Source of the DNA: a virus
Virus record (IMG/VR): IMGVR_UViG_3300001870_000003
Location: 1 to 41,543 of that record
DNA length: 41,543 nt
Direction: 5' to 3' (one strand)
The translations under genes were made by a program, and so were the position numbers. How positions within the stretch are numbered: position 1 is the stretch's first letter; every line of letters starts with the position of its first letter. Below the pieces are notes generated by a model, which was given only the letters and a program-made list of their open reading frames with translations, did no database searches and was not told the DNA's origin. Shown here piece after piece: positions 17,656 to 41,543 of this stretch.

Positions 17656-18043
17656 AGAATACAGAGCTCCGTTTGCTCCAAAGATACTTGCACCGAAAAC
17701 GAAAAAAGACCCGGACTACCATCCAGCGTTTGAACCAACGATAGCAAAGAAAAGTGCATCGCGGGACTTCGATGAAGAAGCCCGCGATGCGTACCTTGAA
17801 GAAAATGAGTTCTGTTTCTTTTGTCTGCTCAAGGGCATCCTACGTCCGGCCATATATGTCCATCACCTTCTCCGGCGTATCACCCATCCAGAACTCATCA
17901 ACAACAAGCGCAACTTTGTCCAAGTCTGCGCCATCTGTCATCTCGTCCTGCACAATCAGGCGGGGACTATTGAGGAACAACAGCTCTACGAAAAACTGGA
18001 ACAGAAATTACTACTTGAAAGGGGTCTCAATGTCAGAGATTGA
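17591..18043 (+). CDS. HNH nuclease family protein (150 aa)
   Basis: TTG 17591 follows GGAGG with 6-base spacing. The N-terminus is basic and Pro-rich. The C-terminal domain has CFFCLLKG, then YVHHLLRR and VCAICHLVLH: a CxxC ... HH ... CxxCH arrangement typical of zinc-stabilised HNH nucleases, where the first His of HH is catalytic. This family is different from the three HNH-like genes at 8535, 12017 and 12891. It could be a recombination or packaging nuclease, or a homing gene. Confidence 0.75.
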   Translation: MKPTAKRREAKAPQKSLESPTREYRAPFAPKILAPKTKKDPDYHPAFEPTIAKKSASRDFDEEARDAYLEENEFCFFCLLKGILRPAIYVHHLLRRITHPELINNKRNFVQVCAICHLVLHNQAGTIEEQQLYEKLEQKLLLERGLNVRD

Positions 18044-19781
18044 AAGTTATATCAACCATTCGAACTGGAGAATCAAACAAAACTCCAATACATCTTTTTC
18101 CGTTTCCGATATGGAAGCAAAGATTGCAGAGAAGGAATCTGCAAGGTGGTGGTTCTCACAGTATTCATCGGAAATTGCTGAGGCCCATCGCGTCGGGGCG
18201 CTCTACCTGCACAACCTCGGGAGAGTCACGACCTACTGTATGGGATGGGACTTGCGGGCATTGCTCGCCAAGGGCTTTGGGGGAAACCCTGACTTCCTGA
18301 GTTCAAAACCGCCGCATCATCTGCGGGTCGCTTTTCTGCAGATGGCAAACTTTCTGTATACCGTACAGGGCGAGGCTGCAGGCGCACAGGCGTTTAGTAA
18401 CGTCGACACCCTACTCGCGCCCTACATCCGCTACGAGAACATGTCGGACAAGGAACTCGAGCAGGCTATCCAAGAGCTCGTCTACAATCTGAATGTTCCG
18501 ACCCGCGCTAGCGGACAGCCCCCGTTCCTCAACTTCCAACTCGACCTCGTCGCGCCGAAGAGCCTCGCGTCTCAACAGGTGATGATAGGCGACATCAAGT
18601 ATACGACCTACTACACTTACGGCGATTTTCAGCCAGAGATGGACAGGTTTAACAAGGCGTTTGCCAAGGTCATGATGACGGGTGACGGTGGGGGCAAACC
18701 ATTCAGCTTTCCTATCCCAACGTATTCTCTTCCGAATCTGCAGCGCGTAGATATCCCCGAGATTTGGGAGATGACTGCGAAATATGGTCTCCCTTACTTC
18801 ATGATGGATGCGACCAGTGATGACGCCTACTCGATGTGCTGTCATCTCAGACTTGAGAAAAAACTTCTGATGTTCAGGAGCGGCGGTATCTTCGCCAAGT
18901 TCCCGCTCACGGGTTCCATCGGTGTTGTGACTATTTCGCTCCCGGCAATGTCCGCGATGAAGGGACACTCAAGTTTCTTCGATGTCTTGGCGCACTACAT
19001 GGACTTGGCTAGGGATTCCCTGCTTATCAAGGGGAAAATCCTCGAAGGATTCATGGACAAGGGACTCTATCCTTACAGCAAATACTGGCTGCAGGACATC
19101 AAGAGTAATACGGGCAGTTACTTTGGCAACCACTTCCGCACCATTGGTCTCGTCGGGATGAACGAAGCGTGTCTTATGGAGACGGGCAAGGGCATCAACA
19201 CGGAGGGCGGGCGCGATTGGGCAAAGAGAGTCCTCGAGTTCATGGCACTGACTACGAATGACTACACCGATGAAACAGGATTCCTCTTCAATCTTGAGGC
19301 GACCCCCGCCGAGACAGCCGCGCACTATTGCGCCCGGGGCAACATCAAGGCTGGTTTGGACGTCAAACACTCCGGTACGAAGGAGACTCCTTACTACACA
19401 GCGAGTTCACTGCTCCCATCTTCTTTCGATGGCGGACTGTGGGCTGCGCTAGATAACCAGAACAAACTACAACCGCTGTACACGGGTGGAACTGTGTTTC
19501 ACATCTTTAGCGAACACCAGTTCACCCCAAAGCAGACAGAGAAGCTCATCTTCGCCATCAAGGAGAAGTACCAGCTTCCCTACATCACCTTCACTCCGAA
19601 CATCCGTATCTGTCCCGAGCACGGTTGGATTCCCGACGATGTGCAGGGAAAGTGTCCCATCTGTGGGGCTGAGGTTACGGTTTACAGCCGCCCGGTCGGA
19701 TACCTGCGACCCGTCAAGGGATTTTCTGATGCGAAACAGGAAGAGTTTAGGGCTCGTCACTTCTTCGATGAGGGTCTCTAG
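18030..19781 (+). CDS. nrdD: Anaerobic (class III) ribonucleoside-triphosphate reductase
   Basis: 583 residues from ATG 18030 (GAAAGGGG upstream). The family's active-site cysteines are in SMCCHLRL (about residue 270). Near the end is a Zn-type site (ICPEHG ... CPICGAE) and the glycyl-radical loop RPVGYLRPV, with Gly about 557. The N-terminal ATP-cone of cellular enzymes is missing, as in T4 NrdD, so dATP inhibition is probably lost. It reduces ribonucleotides to deoxyribonucleotides using a glycyl radical made by NrdG (21154). This implies replication without oxygen. Confidence 0.95.
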   Translation: MSEIESYINHSNWRIKQNSNTSFSVSDMEAKIAEKESARWWFSQYSSEIAEAHRVGALYLHNLGRVTTYCMGWDLRALLAKGFGGNPDFLSSKPPHHLRVAFLQMANFLYTVQGEAAGAQAFSNVDTLLAPYIRYENMSDKELEQAIQELVYNLNVPTRASGQPPFLNFQLDLVAPKSLASQQVMIGDIKYTTYYTYGDFQPEMDRFNKAFAKVMMTGDGGGKPFSFPIPTYSLPNLQRVDIPEIWEMTAKYGLPYFMMDATSDDAYSMCCHLRLEKKLLMFRSGGIFAKFPLTGSIGVVTISLPAMSAMKGHSSFFDVLAHYMDLARDSLLIKGKILEGFMDKGLYPYSKYWLQDIKSNTGSYFGNHFRTIGLVGMNEACLMETGKGINTEGGRDWAKRVLEFMALTTNDYTDETGFLFNLEATPAETAAHYCARGNIKAGLDVKHSGTKETPYYTASSLLPSSFDGGLWAALDNQNKLQPLYTGGTVFHIFSEHQFTPKQTEKLIFAIKEKYQLPYITFTPNIRICPEHGWIPDDVQGKCPICGAEVTVYSRPVGYLRPVKGFSDAKQEEFRARHFFDEGL

Positions 19782-20847: not shown

Positions 20848-21185
20848 TTATAAGAATAAAAGACGCCAAGACGGGAAAAATGAAGGTCATCGGAATGGTT
20901 GAGAACGGCATCTTCTTCAAGACGGTCAACAGCCAGCGGCACAAATTCCTCAAGTTTAACGCTTATGGCATCCAGAGCAGCGTTGTCGAGAAGTTCGGAG
21001 AGAACGACGTGCGCCGCGTTCGCATCACAGAATCGGATACCGGAGACATCTACGAGAGCACGAAATCTGATTGGGAGAATGCCGACTCGGTCAACCTTGG
21101 GTATGGGAAACAACAGATGGTTCCCGTCTCTGCGATGAGGAAAATCGGATTCTATGACCAGTCACATCAACTTGTCAAGTTCTAG
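20844..21185 (+). CDS. Hypothetical protein (113 aa)
   Basis: ATGA-coupled to the previous gene. Beta-rich and basic (MIIRIKDAKTGKMKVIGM ...), with no catalytic signature. Its end overlaps the NrdG start by 32 bases. Confidence 0.7.
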   Translation: MIIRIKDAKTGKMKVIGMVENGIFFKTVNSQRHKFLKFNAYGIQSSVVEKFGENDVRRVRITESDTGDIYESTKSDWENADSVNLGYGKQQMVPVSAMRKIGFYDQSHQLVKF

Positions 21186-21693
21186 GAGTTACACTAGCGT
21201 CCACTCGTTTGTCGATTTGACAGCAGAAGTCCCCGGGTGTATCTCCGGGACGCTGCTCTTCCAAGGTTGTAACTTGGAATGTCCCTTCTGTTTCAACAAA
21301 GAACTGATGGTTGAGTACGAATCCCCCTTCTCCCGGTATCAGTCTATCTTGAAGAACATCCTCGAGCACCCGTACAATGGCATCGCATTTGGCGGCGGGG
21401 AGCCGTTGCTATACCAGAAGGAACTTGTCGGCATCATCATGAACGACATCCCCGAAGTGTGGCACAAGGCAATCTACACGAACTTCACGGAATCCTTCAT
21501 GCCCGGACTGTTCGACCTCATAGACTACTGGTTCGTCAGTCTGAAGCCAAAAGACTACTACGCAGTCGCACAATGGCGTCGACTCACCTTCAATCTCGGA
21601 CTGTATGGTCAGTCGCCGAAGGTTAAGTTTGTTGAGGTTGAAGGACATGGACTTGCTGAACAACTCAAATACGTCGACCCAAAGGAGTTGTGA
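21154..21693 (+). CDS. nrdG: Anaerobic RNR activating enzyme (radical SAM)
   Basis: 179 residues. CNLECPFC (Cys 39, 43, 46) is the CxxxCxxC [4Fe-4S] motif of radical-SAM enzymes, and FGGGEPLL is the SAM-binding GGE motif. It makes the glycyl radical on NrdD using SAM and a reduced flavodoxin or ferredoxin. ATG 21154 lies inside the upstream gene. A strong AGGAG at 21184-21188 is followed in frame only by non-standard codons, so the real start may be a little downstream. Confidence 0.9.
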   Translation: MTSHINLSSSRSYTSVHSFVDLTAEVPGCISGTLLFQGCNLECPFCFNKELMVEYESPFSRYQSILKNILEHPYNGIAFGGGEPLLYQKELVGIIMNDIPEVWHKAIYTNFTESFMPGLFDLIDYWFVSLKPKDYYAVAQWRRLTFNLGLYGQSPKVKFVEVEGHGLAEQLKYVDPKEL

Positions 21694-30204: not shown

Positions 30205-30441
30205 TTACTTCATGTCATCTTTTGGCGCAAACGGTTTCGCCCGTTCAGGTATCTCAAAGTCGGACATTTCTCTCTCGAGCGCCCGCTGCATGATGCCTGA
30301 ACAATCTTCTCGGTTGTAGGCGGCATAGACCCGAAGTTTGTATGTCAGTTTCTTGGGAAGGTAGGATGTAAAACGCTCCTTCTTGTCTTTTGCCGTATCC
30401 ATGTTGTCGAGGAAATCCCCCGACCCTTTTTGTTGTTTCAC
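30205..30441 (-). CDS. Ribbon-helix-helix protein, probable partition ParB partner
   Basis: 78 residues, GTG start overlapping the ParA stop. The core KKERFTSYLPKKLTYKLRVY then AAYNREDCSGIMQRALERE has the short beta strand and two helices of RHH/CopG-Arc dimers. Directly following ParA, such proteins (ParG, Omega, ParR-like) bind centromere repeats and repress their own operon. Candidate binding sites are the TGTCA repeats at 31186 and the 10-bp repeats at 27071. Confidence 0.78.
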   Translation of the reverse strand: MKQQKGSGDFLDNMDTAKDKKERFTSYLPKKLTYKLRVYAAYNREDCSGIMQRALEREMSDFEIPERAKPFAPKDDMK

Positions 30442-31175
30442 TCTAATCTCCCCTCAATCTCCTTGAATAATGACAGGAAGGCTTCTTTTGCCTTACCCGA
30501 ATCAACAGGTTCTCGATTGTATATGGCTTCGCGCACTCTGACCGAAGATGGAATAGACGTCCTGAACAGAGTACCGTCGTAGTCTCTCTCGAGTTGCTCA
30601 CGGATTTGTTGCGTAAGCAGTAGACGTTCTTGGACGTCAGCCAAGGCGATACCGAGGATTTTCGGGGTCTCTGTATCCTGTTTTTCCCGGATACGGTCGA
30701 CCGTGTGGAAGAGGTCACGTAGTCCGTCGACGGAGAACTTGGATGCGTCTGCCGGGACGAGGATATATTCTGCTGCAAGTAGTGCGTTCGTCGTAAAGAG
30801 CGCCAGTGACGGCGGTGTGTCGATGAGGACATATTCGAACTCTCCCGATTTCCTGAGTGTCTTCATGAGACCCTTCAGCAACGAGAAATTATCGTACTTC
30901 GTGTCTGCCTCATATCTACTGAGCGAAAGGTTACTTCCAATGACGGACAGATAGTCCGCGACGAGTAACGGTTGTGGATGTCCTTCTTCAAAGAGCAGTT
31001 TCACATTGTTGGCATCCGCGAGTTCGTCGACGAGGCAACTCGTCAGGTTTGCCTGCGGGTCGATGTCTATGCAAAGGGTATTCTTCTCCTGCGCTGCGAG
31101 GTATTGCGCGAGGTGAAACGTGATGGTCGTCTTGCCTACACCGCCCTTCTGGTTCGCTATAGCAATGACCTTCAT
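30438..31175 (-). CDS. parA: ParA-family partition ATPase
   Basis: 245 residues. Deviant Walker A KGGVGKTT (about 10-17) with the signature Lys, DIDPQAN (about 38-44) and Walker B EYVLIDTPPS (about 114-123) define ParA/MinD ATPases. No N-terminal HTH, so it is a short (type Ib-like) ParA, usually paired with an RHH partner, as here. It would segregate a low-copy replicon on the nucleoid. Its promoter and operator lie at 31186-31235. Confidence 0.93.
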   Translation of the reverse strand: MKVIAIANQKGGVGKTTITFHLAQYLAAQEKNTLCIDIDPQANLTSCLVDELADANNVKLLFEEGHPQPLLVADYLSVIGSNLSLSRYEADTKYDNFSLLKGLMKTLRKSGEFEYVLIDTPPSLALFTTNALLAAEYILVPADASKFSVDGLRDLFHTVDRIREKQDTETPKILGIALADVQERLLLTQQIREQLERDYDGTLFRTSIPSSVRVREAIYNREPVDSGKAKEAFLSLFKEIEGRLE

Positions 31176-36185: not shown

Positions 36186-36593
36186 TTATCCCGTCCCCAA
36201 CCCTATCTTCGCTTTTTCAGCCCTTCCCCATGCCCGACACTGTTTGACATATGCGCTGCACGCTGGCGCATCAACGTCCGTGGCATCTCGCAACAGTTTC
36301 AGTTCATCGTCAATGCTGTATCTCTTTCTGATTTTCTCCACAACGCGGGCATTAATCAGCCGCACATGAGGACTGGCAGCCTTGATGGCATCCAATAGCT
36401 CAGGAGTCAATGTCACGCTCTCTACGGTGATTTCCGGTGACTGCAACGGCAAGGTCTCAGTATCAGGTACGTACACATACGTCGTGCCATCAACGGTTGC
36501 CAGCTCTGTCCCGAGACGCTCCATCCCGTCTACAGGTAGGGAAATTTCAACCGTTCGCGAACTGTCGATATGCTTTTGGTAACTGTAAATCAT
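36186..36593 (-). CDS. Hypothetical tail-region protein (135 aa)
   Basis: AAGGAG precedes ATG 36593, 47 bases inside the RT gene end. The C-terminal half (NARVVEKIRKRYSIDDELKL ... YVKQCRAWGRAEKAKIG) resembles small phage tail-assembly proteins with an RYSxDDE pattern. Assembly chaperone is possible. Confidence 0.65.
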   Translation of the reverse strand: MIYSYQKHIDSSRTVEISLPVDGMERLGTELATVDGTTYVYVPDTETLPLQSPEITVESVTLTPELLDAIKAASPHVRLINARVVEKIRKRYSIDDELKLLRDATDVDAPACSAYVKQCRAWGRAEKAKIGLGTG

Positions 36594-37542
36594 GGTATTT
36601 CTCCTTCATTGTTCTGACGAGGTATCGTACGCTGTGTGTCCTTCTGGCGTGACCGAGAATCGAGATGGCGCTTTGTATCCTTCCATCTCGCAGTGCCCGC
36701 GAGAAGACAAACAGGCTGCGTTTGCGGACGAAACGTTTGTCCGTCCAGGTACGGTAGCCGACAAAATTGACGCCTCGCTTAATGAGAGCAATGGTATAGC
36801 GTGACAGCTCGAGGCTGAGCGTCTTGATGAAGGCAATGATGCGAGCGAGATATTCATCTGCCTGCTTTCTGGTGATTCCGAAGAGAATAAAGTCATCAAC
36901 ATATCGGCAATAACGTTTCGCTTTTAACTCTCGTTTGATGAAGTGGTCAAGCGGATTCAGATAAATTAGGGCATAGACCTGAGAAAGTAGGTTTCCGATA
37001 GGAATCCCGATTGGTTGGCCATAATCAGCAAACAACATCATGACGTCGATAAAACGTCTATCCTTGATTTTGCGTTCAATGAGTTGTCGCAGCACATTCC
37101 TGTTAATCCGGTAGAAAAACTTGCGGATGTCCAACTTGAGGGTATAACTGTCGACTGGTGATGCTGTCAATGCTGTCTGTGCGTAGTTTGCACAGGCATG
37201 AGTTCCTTTTCCTTTTCGACAGGCATATGACTGGTCTATGAACGCCCGGTCAAAGATTAGACGGATAACCCGGTAGATGGCATGTTGCACAACCAAGTCG
37301 CGAAACGCCGGAGCGTAAATCTTGCGTTCCTTCGGTTCATAAACGGTAAACGTAAGGTACGGTCGTGGTTTATAGGTTCCGCTCTGCAGTTCATCATAGA
37401 GACTGTCCAGATTGTAACTCAACCGTCGCTCGAACTTGAAACAGGCTTGATTCCCGTGTTTGTGCTTGCTGGCATCGAGATATGCCTGATAGAGATTGTC
37501 CCTGGTAAACGCTTGTTCGAAGAGATAGCCAACACGCTTCAA
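36547..37542 (-). CDS. DGR reverse transcriptase
   Basis: 331 residues from TTG 37542, with AAGGAG 7 bases upstream. RT motifs in order: FTVYEPKERKIYAPAFRDLVV, TLKLDIRKFF (motif 3), GIPIGNLLSQVYALIYLNPL (about 180-198, the IGxxxSQ motif typical of DGR and related RTs) and YCRYVDDFILF (YVDD, Asp 216-217). It copies the template RNA into cDNA with adenine-specific errors. Gene order target-Avd-TR-RT on one strand is canonical. Length suits DGR RTs. Confidence 0.95.
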   Translation of the reverse strand: MKRVGYLFEQAFTRDNLYQAYLDASKHKHGNQACFKFERRLSYNLDSLYDELQSGTYKPRPYLTFTVYEPKERKIYAPAFRDLVVQHAIYRVIRLIFDRAFIDQSYACRKGKGTHACANYAQTALTASPVDSYTLKLDIRKFFYRINRNVLRQLIERKIKDRRFIDVMMLFADYGQPIGIPIGNLLSQVYALIYLNPLDHFIKRELKAKRYCRYVDDFILFGITRKQADEYLARIIAFIKTLSLELSRYTIALIKRGVNFVGYRTWTDKRFVRKRSLFVFSRALRDGRIQSAISILGHARRTHSVRYLVRTMKEKYHDLQLPKAYRQFANG

Positions 37543-37681
37543 AAGTTCACTCCTTGACGTTCGAGACTGTTGCCAGCCCTACCAGAAATGGAGTGATAAA
37601 CCGATTTCGCAGTCAACAGAACCTGCCGGAAAACGCCTCCCTTTGTTCCACCATTCGATTGTTCGATGCGAGGAGAAGCAG
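37543..37681 (-). other. TR-RT spacer (DGR RNA 3' part)
   Basis: 139 bases between the template repeat and the RT start. In known DGRs this spacer is part of the template RNA and is needed for cDNA priming. It has no gene of its own; a frame crossing TR and spacer (37539-37841) is a by-product. Confidence 0.7.
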
Positions 37682-37795
37682 AGTCGGAGCGAAACCCGAT
37701 GTTGTTGTTCGAGTTCGCTCGGTTGTTGTTCAAATTGAGTGTCCATATACCTGCGTTTGAAGCATTGTTCCAATTGCCACCTGAAATCGGACACA
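37682..37795 (-). repeat. DGR template repeat (TR)
   Basis: About 114 bases, ungapped match (offset 578) to the VR at 38260-38373. On the - strand it would read CPISGGNWNNASNAGIWTLN continuing LNNNRANSNNN, rich in AAC/AAT codons (12 Asn), the hallmark of a DGR template. It starts directly at the Avd stop codon. Similarity may extend weakly to 37800. Confidence 0.97.
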
Positions 37796-37797
37796 TT

Positions 37798-38193
37798 TTA
37801 AGACGTTTCCCGTTGATTCTCGTGTACAATCCATCCACCAATCATTCTGCCAAGTTCATCGATGAGTCGACTGATTGCCATAAATCTATGTTCAGCCAGT
37901 GGCTCACCACCTTCTTTCGTTCCATCCTTGAATTGAAAATAGTCCAGACTGTAGGCCAGATTCACAAACATGCGGAGTTGTTCATGCCGTATGTCCAGTG
38001 TAGTCAGTGTCGTCTTCTTATGATATCGTTTCTGCGTTTCGACAATCAGGGCATACACGTCATACATAGCAGAACGAATCGTCTGACAGAGAGCATATTT
38101 TTCATATTTTGGAAAATGGTTGAGATAGATGTTCATCAGTTTTGCCGTCTCGATAAACTTCCTGTTCAATTCCGCTTCTGAGTGCCGCCCCAT
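37798..38193 (-). CDS. avd: DGR accessory variability determinant (Avd)
   Basis: 131 residues, ATG after AAAGGAG. Helical, basic protein (FIETAKLMNIYLNHFPKYEK, ALCQTIRSAMYDVYALIVET, HEQLRMFVNLAYSLDYFQF, RFMAISRLIDELGRMIGGWI), four helices as in the Avd bundle that forms a pentamer, binds the RT and the template RNA and is needed for mutagenic cDNA synthesis. Its stop abuts the TR. Confidence 0.9.
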   Translation of the reverse strand: MGRHSEAELNRKFIETAKLMNIYLNHFPKYEKYALCQTIRSAMYDVYALIVETQKRYHKKTTLTTLDIRHEQLRMFVNLAYSLDYFQFKDGTKEGGEPLAEHRFMAISRLIDELGRMIGGWIVHENQRETS

Positions 38194-38214
38194 ATGGTCT
38201 CCTTTAGAACAAAT

Positions 38215-38237
38215 GGGTGGACGCTACCGCGTCACCC
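38215..38237 (-). promoter_or_regulatory. Hairpin downstream of VR (DGR homing element)
   Basis: GGGTG-G-ACGC-TACC-GCGT-CACCC on the + strand: 9 base pairs, one bulge, 4-base loop. It lies about 22 bases past the VR end, after the target stop. In phage BPP-1 an inverted repeat of 8 bp with 4-base loop just after the VR raises retargeting. Confidence 0.75.
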
Positions 38238-38245
38238 TGACATGA

Positions 38246-39721
38246 TTACAACAAATATAAGGCGGAGCGAAACCCGATGCCGCCGGTCGAGTGCGCCCGG
38301 TAGTTGCTCAAATCGAGCGACCATAAACCCGCGAGCGAAGCATTGTCCCAACTGCCACCCGAAATCGGACACAACTCATTAGGCCGATAATCAGTCAGAT
38401 AGTCATTGCCAAAGAGGTTTGACCCTCCAACACCACCGACCAATGGGATGCCTAAACCGGCCGCCGCCCAATCGTTGCCGCTTACTGCTGCAGAAAGGAC
38501 TTGCGTGGCACTACCATAGTTTTTTACTGTGGAGGACGCGAGCACTGCTCCATAGGTTGCCCCTATATTGTCGTAGTTGGCCGCGAGGCCAGTTGCTCCG
38601 AACAAGTCAGTAGCCAGAGTATTGCTGCCTGTCAGCTCCTTCATGGCCTTGATAGTCTTGAGGACGAACAAATTTGTCCCGTCCGATGATAAGCCATATC
38701 CGGTTTCCCAAATGAGTCCGTTCAGGTCGCATACCCCGCTATTCTGTCCATTGTGAGTTGTCTTGGCAAAGTAGTTGGCTGACCCAGTCTTACCGACGTT
38801 GTAGGTCCCGTTCGCGTCGCTGTCGTAGAGGATGGTTGCATCTTGCGAGTCGCCGAGGGCATTATTGTTGCAGCCCTTCGGGAACATGCTATTCGTCATG
38901 AACCATGCACAGTTGAACACTGATGTTGCGGCCTGACCATGCGCGAGGGCAAGCAATGCGAGTCCAGCCTGAATAAAGCGGCTGTTGGCGAAGAAACTGG
39001 CGCCTCTCGTCTTGGCTGCGGCTTGCGAACCTCCGAGGTTGTTGGCGGGGGCACCCGTCAGGGCAGAATACATGGCTGTCGACAGACTACCGCGTTGTGC
39101 GCTGGTCAGGACGATGCCGTTCTTGATGCTGGAGGCTATTCCTCCGTTGTTCGAGCAGATGTACTTGTCGACGAACACGCCCGGCTGAACAAACCCGCCA
39201 TCATAGAACATGCGGTGAAGGGCATAACCTGCGGCGTTGGCTGTGGCGACATCTGCGTAATAGGAAAATGCTTTGATGTCCACAACGTTGACCGCGAGTC
39301 CATTTGCTCCAGTCCCATATTTGTACCAGAACGCCGGAATCCAGACCATCGCAGAACCATCAGAAAACTGATAGTTGCCATAGTTGTCGGCGGTCGGGTC
39401 ACGAGTTCCATTGAGTTCCACCATGCCCGTTGGCAAGGCCCCCGGACAGATACCGACGCCAAATCCCATCTGGCCCGCAATACCGATATTGTTGGTCGGG
39501 GCTATCGCCATTCCGCTATCTTGAACCACCTGACCACTTGTGTCTGTAAACATGAGAAGGTGATTGGGCGTGGAAGTTGAGAGACTTGTGACGTTTGCGG
39601 TTGGGGTAATAACGGTTGTTCCGACAGTGATTTGATTAGCAATGACTTTTGCCCACTTCTTTGCAACAGTTCCTATTTGACCTTCTCCGTCTGTTCTTGG
39701 TACAAAATTTTTAGTAGCCAC
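38246..39721 (-). CDS. DGR target: probable tail fibre with variable C-terminus
   Basis: 491 residues, GTG start after GGAGATAT. The N-terminus is short-repeat fibre-like (FVPRTDGEGQIGTVAKKWAK). The middle contains MVWIPAFWYKYGTGANG and GVCDLNGLIWETGYGLS, features of the C-type-lectin-like/DUF1566-type fold used by DGR targets. The C-terminus PISGGSWDNASLAGLWSLDL, SNYRAHSTGGIGFRSA is the variable repeat, ending in the GFRS motif shared by many targets. It probably displays the receptor-binding tip of the virion. Confidence 0.88.
   Translation of the reverse strand: MATKNFVPRTDGEGQIGTVAKKWAKVIANQITVGTTVITPTANVTSLSTSTPNHLLMFTDTSGQVVQDSGMAIAPTNNIGIAGQMGFGVGICPGALPTGMVELNGTRDPTADNYGNYQFSDGSAMVWIPAFWYKYGTGANGLAVNVVDIKAFSYYADVATANAAGYALHRMFYDGGFVQPGVFVDKYICSNNGGIASSIKNGIVLTSAQRGSLSTAMYSALTGAPANNLGGSQAAAKTRGASFFANSRFIQAGLALLALAHGQAATSVFNCAWFMTNSMFPKGCNNNALGDSQDATILYDSDANGTYNVGKTGSANYFAKTTHNGQNSGVCDLNGLIWETGYGLSSDGTNLFVLKTIKAMKELTGSNTLATDLFGATGLAANYDNIGATYGAVLASSTVKNYGSATQVLSAAVSGNDWAAAGLGIPLVGGVGGSNLFGNDYLTDYRPNELCPISGGSWDNASLAGLWSLDLSNYRAHSTGGIGFRSALYLL
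38260..38373 (-). repeat. DGR variable repeat (VR)
   Basis: Aligned base by base with the TR, 21 differences, all at positions that are A in the template strand sense (T on the + strand at 37684, 37702-37703, 37705-37706, 37708, 37715, 37719, 37724, 37729, 37736, 37740, 37742, 37748, 37752, 37756-37758, 37769, 37774, 37782), and none at the other positions. At protein level 13 residues change, including 10 of the 12 Asn. Confidence 0.97.
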
Positions 39722-39729
39722 ATATCTCC

Positions 39730-40191
39730 TTATGCGACAGGTTGAAGGTCGCCATTTACATCTGCTTCAAGATACGTTCCCGTTTGGTACGCGGTTGCTG
39801 GCATCAAATCCCCGTTCACATCTAGTTCTAACCAAGTTTTCACCACATTCGCATCAATGGCACTCTGAATCCCATCCATGACTGATTTTGTCAGACCGTT
39901 CATCAACCAATACTCTTTGTCAGCCGTGTTGTGGTCGACAGCCGCTGTCCCCTCCTGCGCGCGCGCGATAGTCAATGTATAAGTTCCCGCGTTGAGGCCC
40001 GTGACACGAACTATTTCAACTGCCGAGTCATCTTCGGGAGATGGAAAATCCGTATGGTTCCACCAGACGAGGTTGTAGGGCGCTGTCTGCGGAAGTTTTG
40101 CAAAATCTGTAGGAGAAAGGACAATGCTCGTTGCCGAGGCATCGTAGCTAGTCGATAAAACTGCCTTGCCAAAATTTACAAGATTGTCCAC
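39730..40191 (-). CDS. Fibre-associated structural protein (153 aa)
   Basis: Starts NFGKAVLSTSYDASATSIVL and continues PYNLVWWNHTDFPSPEDDSA then IARAQEGTAAVDHN, a recurring pattern in phage tail/fibre-region proteins. Its end carries two nearly identical segments (ELDVNGDLMPATAYQTGTYL / EADVNGDLQPVA). It lies next to the DGR target. Confidence 0.75.
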   Translation of the reverse strand: MDNLVNFGKAVLSTSYDASATSIVLSPTDFAKLPQTAPYNLVWWNHTDFPSPEDDSAVEIVRVTGLNAGTYTLTIARAQEGTAAVDHNTADKEYWLMNGLTKSVMDGIQSAIDANVVKTWLELDVNGDLMPATAYQTGTYLEADVNGDLQPVA

Positions 40192-40379: not shown

Positions 40380-41543
40380 TTAGATAAGGTAACTTCCGTT
40401 TATGTAGATGTGACCATTACTTACCGTGAGAGTGTCATTCCCAAACGCTATTCCACGTCCATACGGCAACGATAGTCCACCGGAAAATAAGGCGAGACCA
40501 TTCGCCCAATTCTGAAATATGACGCCGACACCGTATGCGTTGGATATTGCCACCTGACCTGCGGCATAGATGTTCAAGGAAGAATCATTTGCGTAACCCT
40601 TTATGTAGGCATACTCGGAATAACCGCTGTTGAAGGACATGTATTCATAGTTCGTGTCATATAGGTGGAGGTAGTCGCTTTTGACGTCGCATCCGCTTGT
40701 AAGTTCTATTCTGTGCGTTCCGTAATAGTTAGTTCTAAACGCTCCGGAGTTGACATACCTAGCGTTTACCATCCCAGTTGTTATTTTTGCTCCATCGATG
40801 GTCGTAACATTGTATGTAATTGCATTTTGGACACCGTTAGCGTCGATTTTGCCAGCAGCAAGGCCGTACGCATTTCCTGCGTAGGTATAAGCGGCACTAG
40901 CGGCAGATTGCGCACTCACCGCCTTACCGTCGGCTACTGAGGCGGCACTCGCAGCGCCATCGGCTGTACCCTGCGCGACACTAGAGGCACTCGCAGCGCC
41001 GTTGGCCGTTCCCTGTGCGGTGCTGGCGGCAGAAGAAGCACCGTTGGCCGTCGCTTGCGCGGCATTTGCTGCCGCATCAGTTGTCCAGCCTGCGTTGTTA
41101 TTGAGTGCACTCGTACTGATACCAAAGAGTTGTATCTTTCCTGCAACAATTGACCCTGTTGTTATCTTTGCTCCATCGATGGTTGTAACGTTATTGTTGA
41201 TTGCATTGGCAACATCAGCAGCGGCGATTTTTAGGTTGGCGACAGCCAACGCATTAGCCGCTGCAATCTGTGCGGTACTGGCAGCAGAGGCGGCACCGTT
41301 GGCTGTGTCTTGAGCGGTCACTGCCTTACCGTCCGCTATTAATGCGGCACTCGCAGCGCCGTTGGCCGTTCCCTGTGCGGTGCTGGCGGCAGAAGAAGCA
41401 CCGTTGGCCGTCGCTTGCGCGGTACTGGCGGCACCCGCAGCACCATTGGCCGTACCTTGAGCGGCATTTGCCGCTGCATCAGTTGTCCAACCAGCGTTGT
41501 TGTTGAGCGCACTTGTGGTGATACCAAAGAGCTGTATCTTTCC
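40380..41543 (-). CDS. Large tail-fibre-like protein, 5' end outside window
   Basis: The frame is open to the right edge, so only the last 387 residues are visible. Low-complexity Ala/Gly/Asn/Ser/Thr repeats (AQGTANGAASAAS-type units), alternating with VTTIDGAKITTG and GKIQLFGISTSALNNNAGWT. The C-terminal 130 residues are a different domain (SGCDVKSDYLHLYDTNYEYM ... GLSLPYGRGIAFGNDTLTV), of the kind ending phage side fibres or tail-tip proteins. Probably a long trimeric fibre. Confidence 0.8.
   Translation of the reverse strand, partial: GKIQLFGITTSALNNNAGWTTDAAANAAQGTANGAAGAASTAQATANGASSAASTAQGTANGAASAALIADGKAVTAQDTANGAASAASTAQIAAANALAVANLKIAAADVANAINNNVTTIDGAKITTGSIVAGKIQLFGISTSALNNNAGWTTDAAANAAQATANGASSAASTAQGTANGAASASSVAQGTADGAASAASVADGKAVSAQSAASAAYTYAGNAYGLAAGKIDANGVQNAITYNVTTIDGAKITTGMVNARYVNSGAFRTNYYGTHRIELTSGCDVKSDYLHLYDTNYEYMSFNSGYSEYAYIKGYANDSSLNIYAAGQVAISNAYGVGVIFQNWANGLALFSGGLSLPYGRGIAFGNDTLTVSNGHIYINGSYLI
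41101..41543 (-). repeat. 402-bp direct repeat inside the fibre gene
   Basis: GGAAAGATACA(G/A)CTCTTTGGTATCA recurs at 41543 and 41141 on the - strand, 402 bases (134 codons) apart. Between them is a run of short 5-15 residue Ala/Asn-rich repeats that also recur with shifts. Confidence 0.85.

Follow-up and report, generated by a model that had tools for sequence, protein, structure and literature searches.

A complete and probably functional phage-type diversity-generating retroelement in the tail and lysis region of an uncultivated virus

Introduction

More than 30,000 diversity-generating retroelements (DGRs) have been catalogued in six lineages, three of them mainly phage, and the DGRs of phages usually target tail or attachment proteins (PMC8144416). 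Target recognition in the DGR of Bordetella phage BPP-1 (mtd, avd, TR, brt) depends on a hairpin whose loop is of the GRNA type (Guo et al.; PMC3240598). The corresponding hairpin rule describes a GC-rich stem of 7–10 bp with a GRNA loop, placed 4–34 bp after the variable repeat (VR) (PMC3240598).

The window analysed here is the whole 41,543-bp virus record IMGVR_UViG_3300001870_000003. It carries a cassette with the order and strand logic of BPP-1: on the minus strand the target gene (39721–38246) is followed by Avd (38193–37798), the template repeat (TR; 37795–37682) and the reverse transcriptase (RT; 37542–36547). A preliminary description had placed these parts on one strand in canonical order and had called them a complete DGR in a phage fibre locus. 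Both statements are borne out, the first by open frames at these coordinates and the second, for a tail and lysis region, by the RT and Avd families, the target fold, the adenine-only TR/VR differences, the fibre-type neighbours and a hairpin. The cassette is a phage-type DGR, a well-preserved further case of a known mechanism, and we are highly confident that it is complete and probably functional.

The likeness to BPP-1 extends to the dimensions of the element. The repeat at the C-terminus of the target is 134 nt in BPP-1 and 114 nt in the window, the TR lies directly after avd, the spacer between TR and RT is 144 nt in BPP-1 against 139 nt in the window, and in both a GRNA-loop hairpin follows the target stop codon. 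An Avd gene (bAvd, phrog_3206) is also present in the window cassette. The two systems differ in that the window RT is 34% identical to Brt, and in that the window target is not Mtd-like over its body, Foldseek giving only local alignments to Mtd (E 0.6–2).

Other described phages share single components with the window. The RT of Pseudomonas phage Bise (OR683401) is 61% identical to the window RT, and an Avd-like gene annotated as ‘four helix bundle’ lies upstream of it; Bise is nevertheless a different phage, the likeness resting on the RT and the Avd-like gene, and a search of a phage DNA collection gave weak matches only, with Bise the best. Vibrio phages VHML and VP58.5 have TR DNA that is 75% identical to that of the window over ~100 nt, and a target annotated as SUMF1/EgtB beside Avd and RT in the tail region, but their RT is only 36% identical and their TR is contained within the frame annotated as RT. 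The annotated RT protein of VP58.5 (L093:3971-5248) opens with the translation of a TR-like segment, probably through an error in the annotation of the start codon.

Template and variable repeats

The TR (37795–37682, minus strand) starts 2 nt after the avd stop codon, and the VR (38373–38260, minus strand) forms the C-terminus of the target and ends 11 nt before its stop codon. As the preliminary description had claimed, the two align without gaps over 114 nt with 21 differences, all of which lie at template adenines; 21 of the 35 adenines are changed (13 A>G, 4 A>C and 4 A>T) and none of the 79 other positions (hypergeometric P = 5.4e-14). Its count of 12 Asn codons in the TR, 10 of which encode a changed residue in the VR, was likewise reproduced in the target reading frame. 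The adenine-only match can be extended by 5 nt at the 5′ end (119 nt, with 24/39 adenines changed), and the 5′ boundary of the repeats is therefore soft by a few bases. The window contains no second VR, the next-best place matching 39 of the 79 non-adenine positions. Two VRs for a single TR are found in four related DGRs (L044:5257-5894, L048:5228-5885, L053:4728-5851 and L054:4761-5884).

The same lectin segment is encoded by both TR and VR, as would be expected of a plain duplicated segment whose divergence was due to ordinary mutation together with selection acting on the lectin tip. This origin is exceedingly improbable, since such a history does not account for the confinement of 21/21 differences to template adenines (P=5e-14), nor for the recurrence of TR/VR pairs with adenine-only differences in 53 of 60 related loci. 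Several of the changes are moreover synonymous at third-position adenines (Ser TCA>TCG, Ala GCA>GCG and Arg CGA>CGG), so that their origin is mutational and is unexplained by selection on the protein. The earlier view that so strict a pattern is hard to explain otherwise thus holds.

Reverse transcriptase and Avd

The RT (37542–36547, minus strand; 331 aa) begins at a TTG start codon after AAGGAG. A comparison with family models, suggested in the preliminary description, gave a DGR-type match (phrog_1423, E=2.8e-93) together with PF00078. Both the (I/V/L)GxxxSQ motif and the YxDD active site of DGR reverse transcriptases are present; mutated motif residues had been named as evidence against the reading, and the motifs are intact, YVDD and IGNLLSQ aligning with YMDD and IGSLTSQ of BPP-1 Brt. 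The best solved structure is 8ub7 (E=3.5e-48), deposited as ‘Reverse transcriptase’, which we take to be the BPP-1 DGR enzyme. Avd (38193–37798, minus strand; 131 aa) matches PF22296 (bAvd, E=1.9e-15) and phrog_3206 (‘Avd protein of DGR’, E=9.9e-23).

In the tree that had also been proposed, built locally from 21 RTs, the window groups with the related loci L002–L004 (support 100/100). The next neighbours of this group are other metagenomic phages and Pseudomonas phage Bise, and BPP-1 and VP58.5 are distant. For the assignment of DGR clades there is reportedly a six-clade RT tree by Roux et al. 2021.

The end of the RT gene is overlapped by a gene of 135 aa (36186–36593) that is conserved in L002 and has no family match. 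A gene of similar size sits after the target in L063.

Hairpin and spacer

Directly after the target stop codon lies a hairpin or cruciform (38237–38215, minus strand) with the sequence GGGTGACGC-GGTA-GCGTCCACCC, which folds alone and contains one bulged base. Its stem is GC-rich and begins 22 nt after the VR, and the GGTA loop is of the GRNA type, in agreement with the rule derived for such hairpins (PMC3240598). A simple ungapped hairpin score gave p ~0.04 for the window and p ~0.5 for L032; it missed bulged stems, and an aligned covariation count was therefore used. Across 13 related loci 95% of the inner-stem cells are paired and every one of the five pairs has changes in both of its partners, a covariation score reached by 0/500 shuffles. 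The outer pairs are less well supported than the inner stem.

The spacer between TR and RT (37681–37543, minus strand) is 139 nt long, with a range of 125–147 nt in relatives; a value of 159 nt for L003 arose because its TR had been trimmed too short, and was left out of this range. A covarying stem at 37673–37648 is 100% paired in 13 sequences, and 4/4 inner pairs are changed on both sides. The spacer presumably forms the 3′ portion of the template RNA, and the stem is presumably part of the fold of that RNA. Rfam gave no match anywhere in the 41,543-bp window, and no tRNAs were found in it.

Target protein and its setting

The target (39721–38246, minus strand; 491 aa) has a GTG start codon and consists of a variable N-terminus and a C-type-lectin-like body that ends in the VR. 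It matches PHROGs 20912/2889 (unknown function) and, weakly, 5302 (tail protein), and has no Pfam match. The best match by both phmmer and Foldseek is the DGR variable protein TaqVP of Thermus aquaticus (5vf4). The fold match covers ~420 columns (E=4.7e-8, Foldseek), and the sequence match found by phmmer falls at the VR-bearing C-terminus. As identity is ~16% and the alignment has an rmsd of 9–10 Å, the claim is limited to the general class of fold. The AlphaFold model of the target reaches moderate confidence, with a mean pLDDT of 65 and poor values within part of the VR, and on this model the protein in whose coding frame the VR lies has a C-type-lectin-type fold match.

Among homologues of the target (L002–L033) the N-terminal ~70 residues are variable and the remainder is conserved, an arrangement that would fit a tip carried on exchangeable anchors. 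The adjacent upstream gene (39730–40191) matches tail fibre PHROGs, and lysis genes lie downstream of the target region. A repeat-rich fibre-like gene adjoins the tail-fibre-type gene; this Ala-rich repetitive gene (40773–41543), with 234-nt and 42-nt-phased repeats, runs off the end of the record.

The fold and position of the target suggest that it is a binding tip, and by analogy with BPP-1 it may bind a receptor. A working DGR could also diversify a protein with a role other than attachment, such as virion decoration or a moron-like surface protein, given that the virion role of the target is only predicted and that Pfam is silent. This is improbable in view of the tail fibre matches of the upstream neighbour and the repeat-rich gene beside it, the lysis genes downstream and the match of the target itself to the tail protein PHROG. 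A role at the binding tip is thus preferred.

Activity of the retroelement

When viral_contigs was scanned with a degenerate VR/TR pattern, no near-identical phages were found, and the closest relatives of the window have ~84% DNA identity. The TR is 89–95% conserved in the nearest relatives, and their VRs differ mostly at TR adenines: the window VR differs from those of L003 and L004 at 19–20 of 39 template-adenine positions and at 5 of 80 others, and from that of L002 at 22/39 and 7/80 respectively. Near-identical pairs among more distant members of the family allow a direct comparison. L019 and L020 have 6 differences in 9058 positions and L050 and L051 have 12 in 9737, all in the VR at TR adenines, and the 20 differences between L059 and L061 over 2773 positions are similarly placed (20/20). 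As the VRs of these pairs have changed at adenines only, the mechanism works in the related family of cassettes.

The dN/dS values of the window against L002 are 0.065 for RT, 0.04 for Avd, 0.13 for the target body and 1.0 for the VR segment. Judged by these ratios, purifying selection acts strongly on RT and Avd and not on the VR segment.

A DGR that is intact but silent or recently inactivated in the window phage, with the VR as the frozen product of past homing, would be compatible with the single assembled VR of this phage and with relatives (L062 and L063) that have such targets and no detectable DGR on their own records. It is nevertheless unlikely, because RT and Avd are intact with low dN/dS values, the hairpin is retained, and TR and VR still agree at all 79 non-adenine positions. 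That the DGR is active or was recently active in the window phage is instead supported, indirectly, by the intact RT motifs, the purifying selection and the adenine-only VR differences among relatives. Activity at present may be supposed from the example of BPP-1.

The biochemical steps envisaged for the cassette are likewise those of BPP-1. A transcript spanning the end of avd, the TR and the structured spacer would be copied by a complex of RT and Avd, and misincorporation by the RT opposite template adenines would yield cDNA with random bases at these positions. Terminal homology would then let this cDNA take the place of the target VR, aided by the hairpin past the target stop codon, which would mark the recipient copy. 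The TR would remain unchanged and the cycle could be repeated. The diversified residues, mainly at Asn AAY codons, would lie in the C-type-lectin-like domain of a tail-region protein and so provide varied binding tips among the progeny.

Targets on records without a detected DGR

Two relatives contain homologues of the target on records that show no DGR. The L062 homologue (L062:2760-4403) is 84% identical, and its VR differs from an L003-type template at 21/31 adenines and at 1/83 other positions. No RT or TR is present on the 7.5-kb contig of L062 and the hairpin is absent after the target stop codon. In L063 the homologue (L063:4989-6707) is 45% identical, and there is no RT match on the 38-kb record.

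From its pattern of substitutions the L062 VR is clearly a DGR product, orphaned on a contig fragment that lacks a DGR. Two accounts can be given: transfer of the target by recombination with subsequent fixation, or a DGR located beyond the ends of the fragment. The loss of the hairpin favours recombination and fixation. It is therefore conceivable, as a tentative proposal, that a diversified target may move between phages of the window's group without its DGR.

Host and lifestyle

The window encodes the large subunit of an anaerobic ribonucleotide reductase (17754–19781) and a radical-SAM protein resembling the activase of that enzyme (21154–21693). Together these genes give a slight indication that the host is anaerobic. 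Among cellular assemblies, the closest RT (70%) comes from a Geobacteraceae MAG. A ParA-like partition protein is also encoded (30438–31175) and may point to a plasmid-like prophage state.

Implications

With the known DGRs being so numerous, three lineages mainly phage and tail proteins the usual phage targets, the cassette adds one member to a known type and leaves the existing knowledge of DGRs unchanged. It is a clean and whole case, from an uncultivated phage, of the targeted diversification of a protein. The relatives fall into a graded series for the parts of a DGR, in which the hairpin, the stem of the spacer RNA and the VR have diverged enough for tests of covariation and rate. If diversified targets do move between these phages, tips of the L062 type would be lectins that a DGR had matured before they became fixed, or ones served by a DGR in trans.
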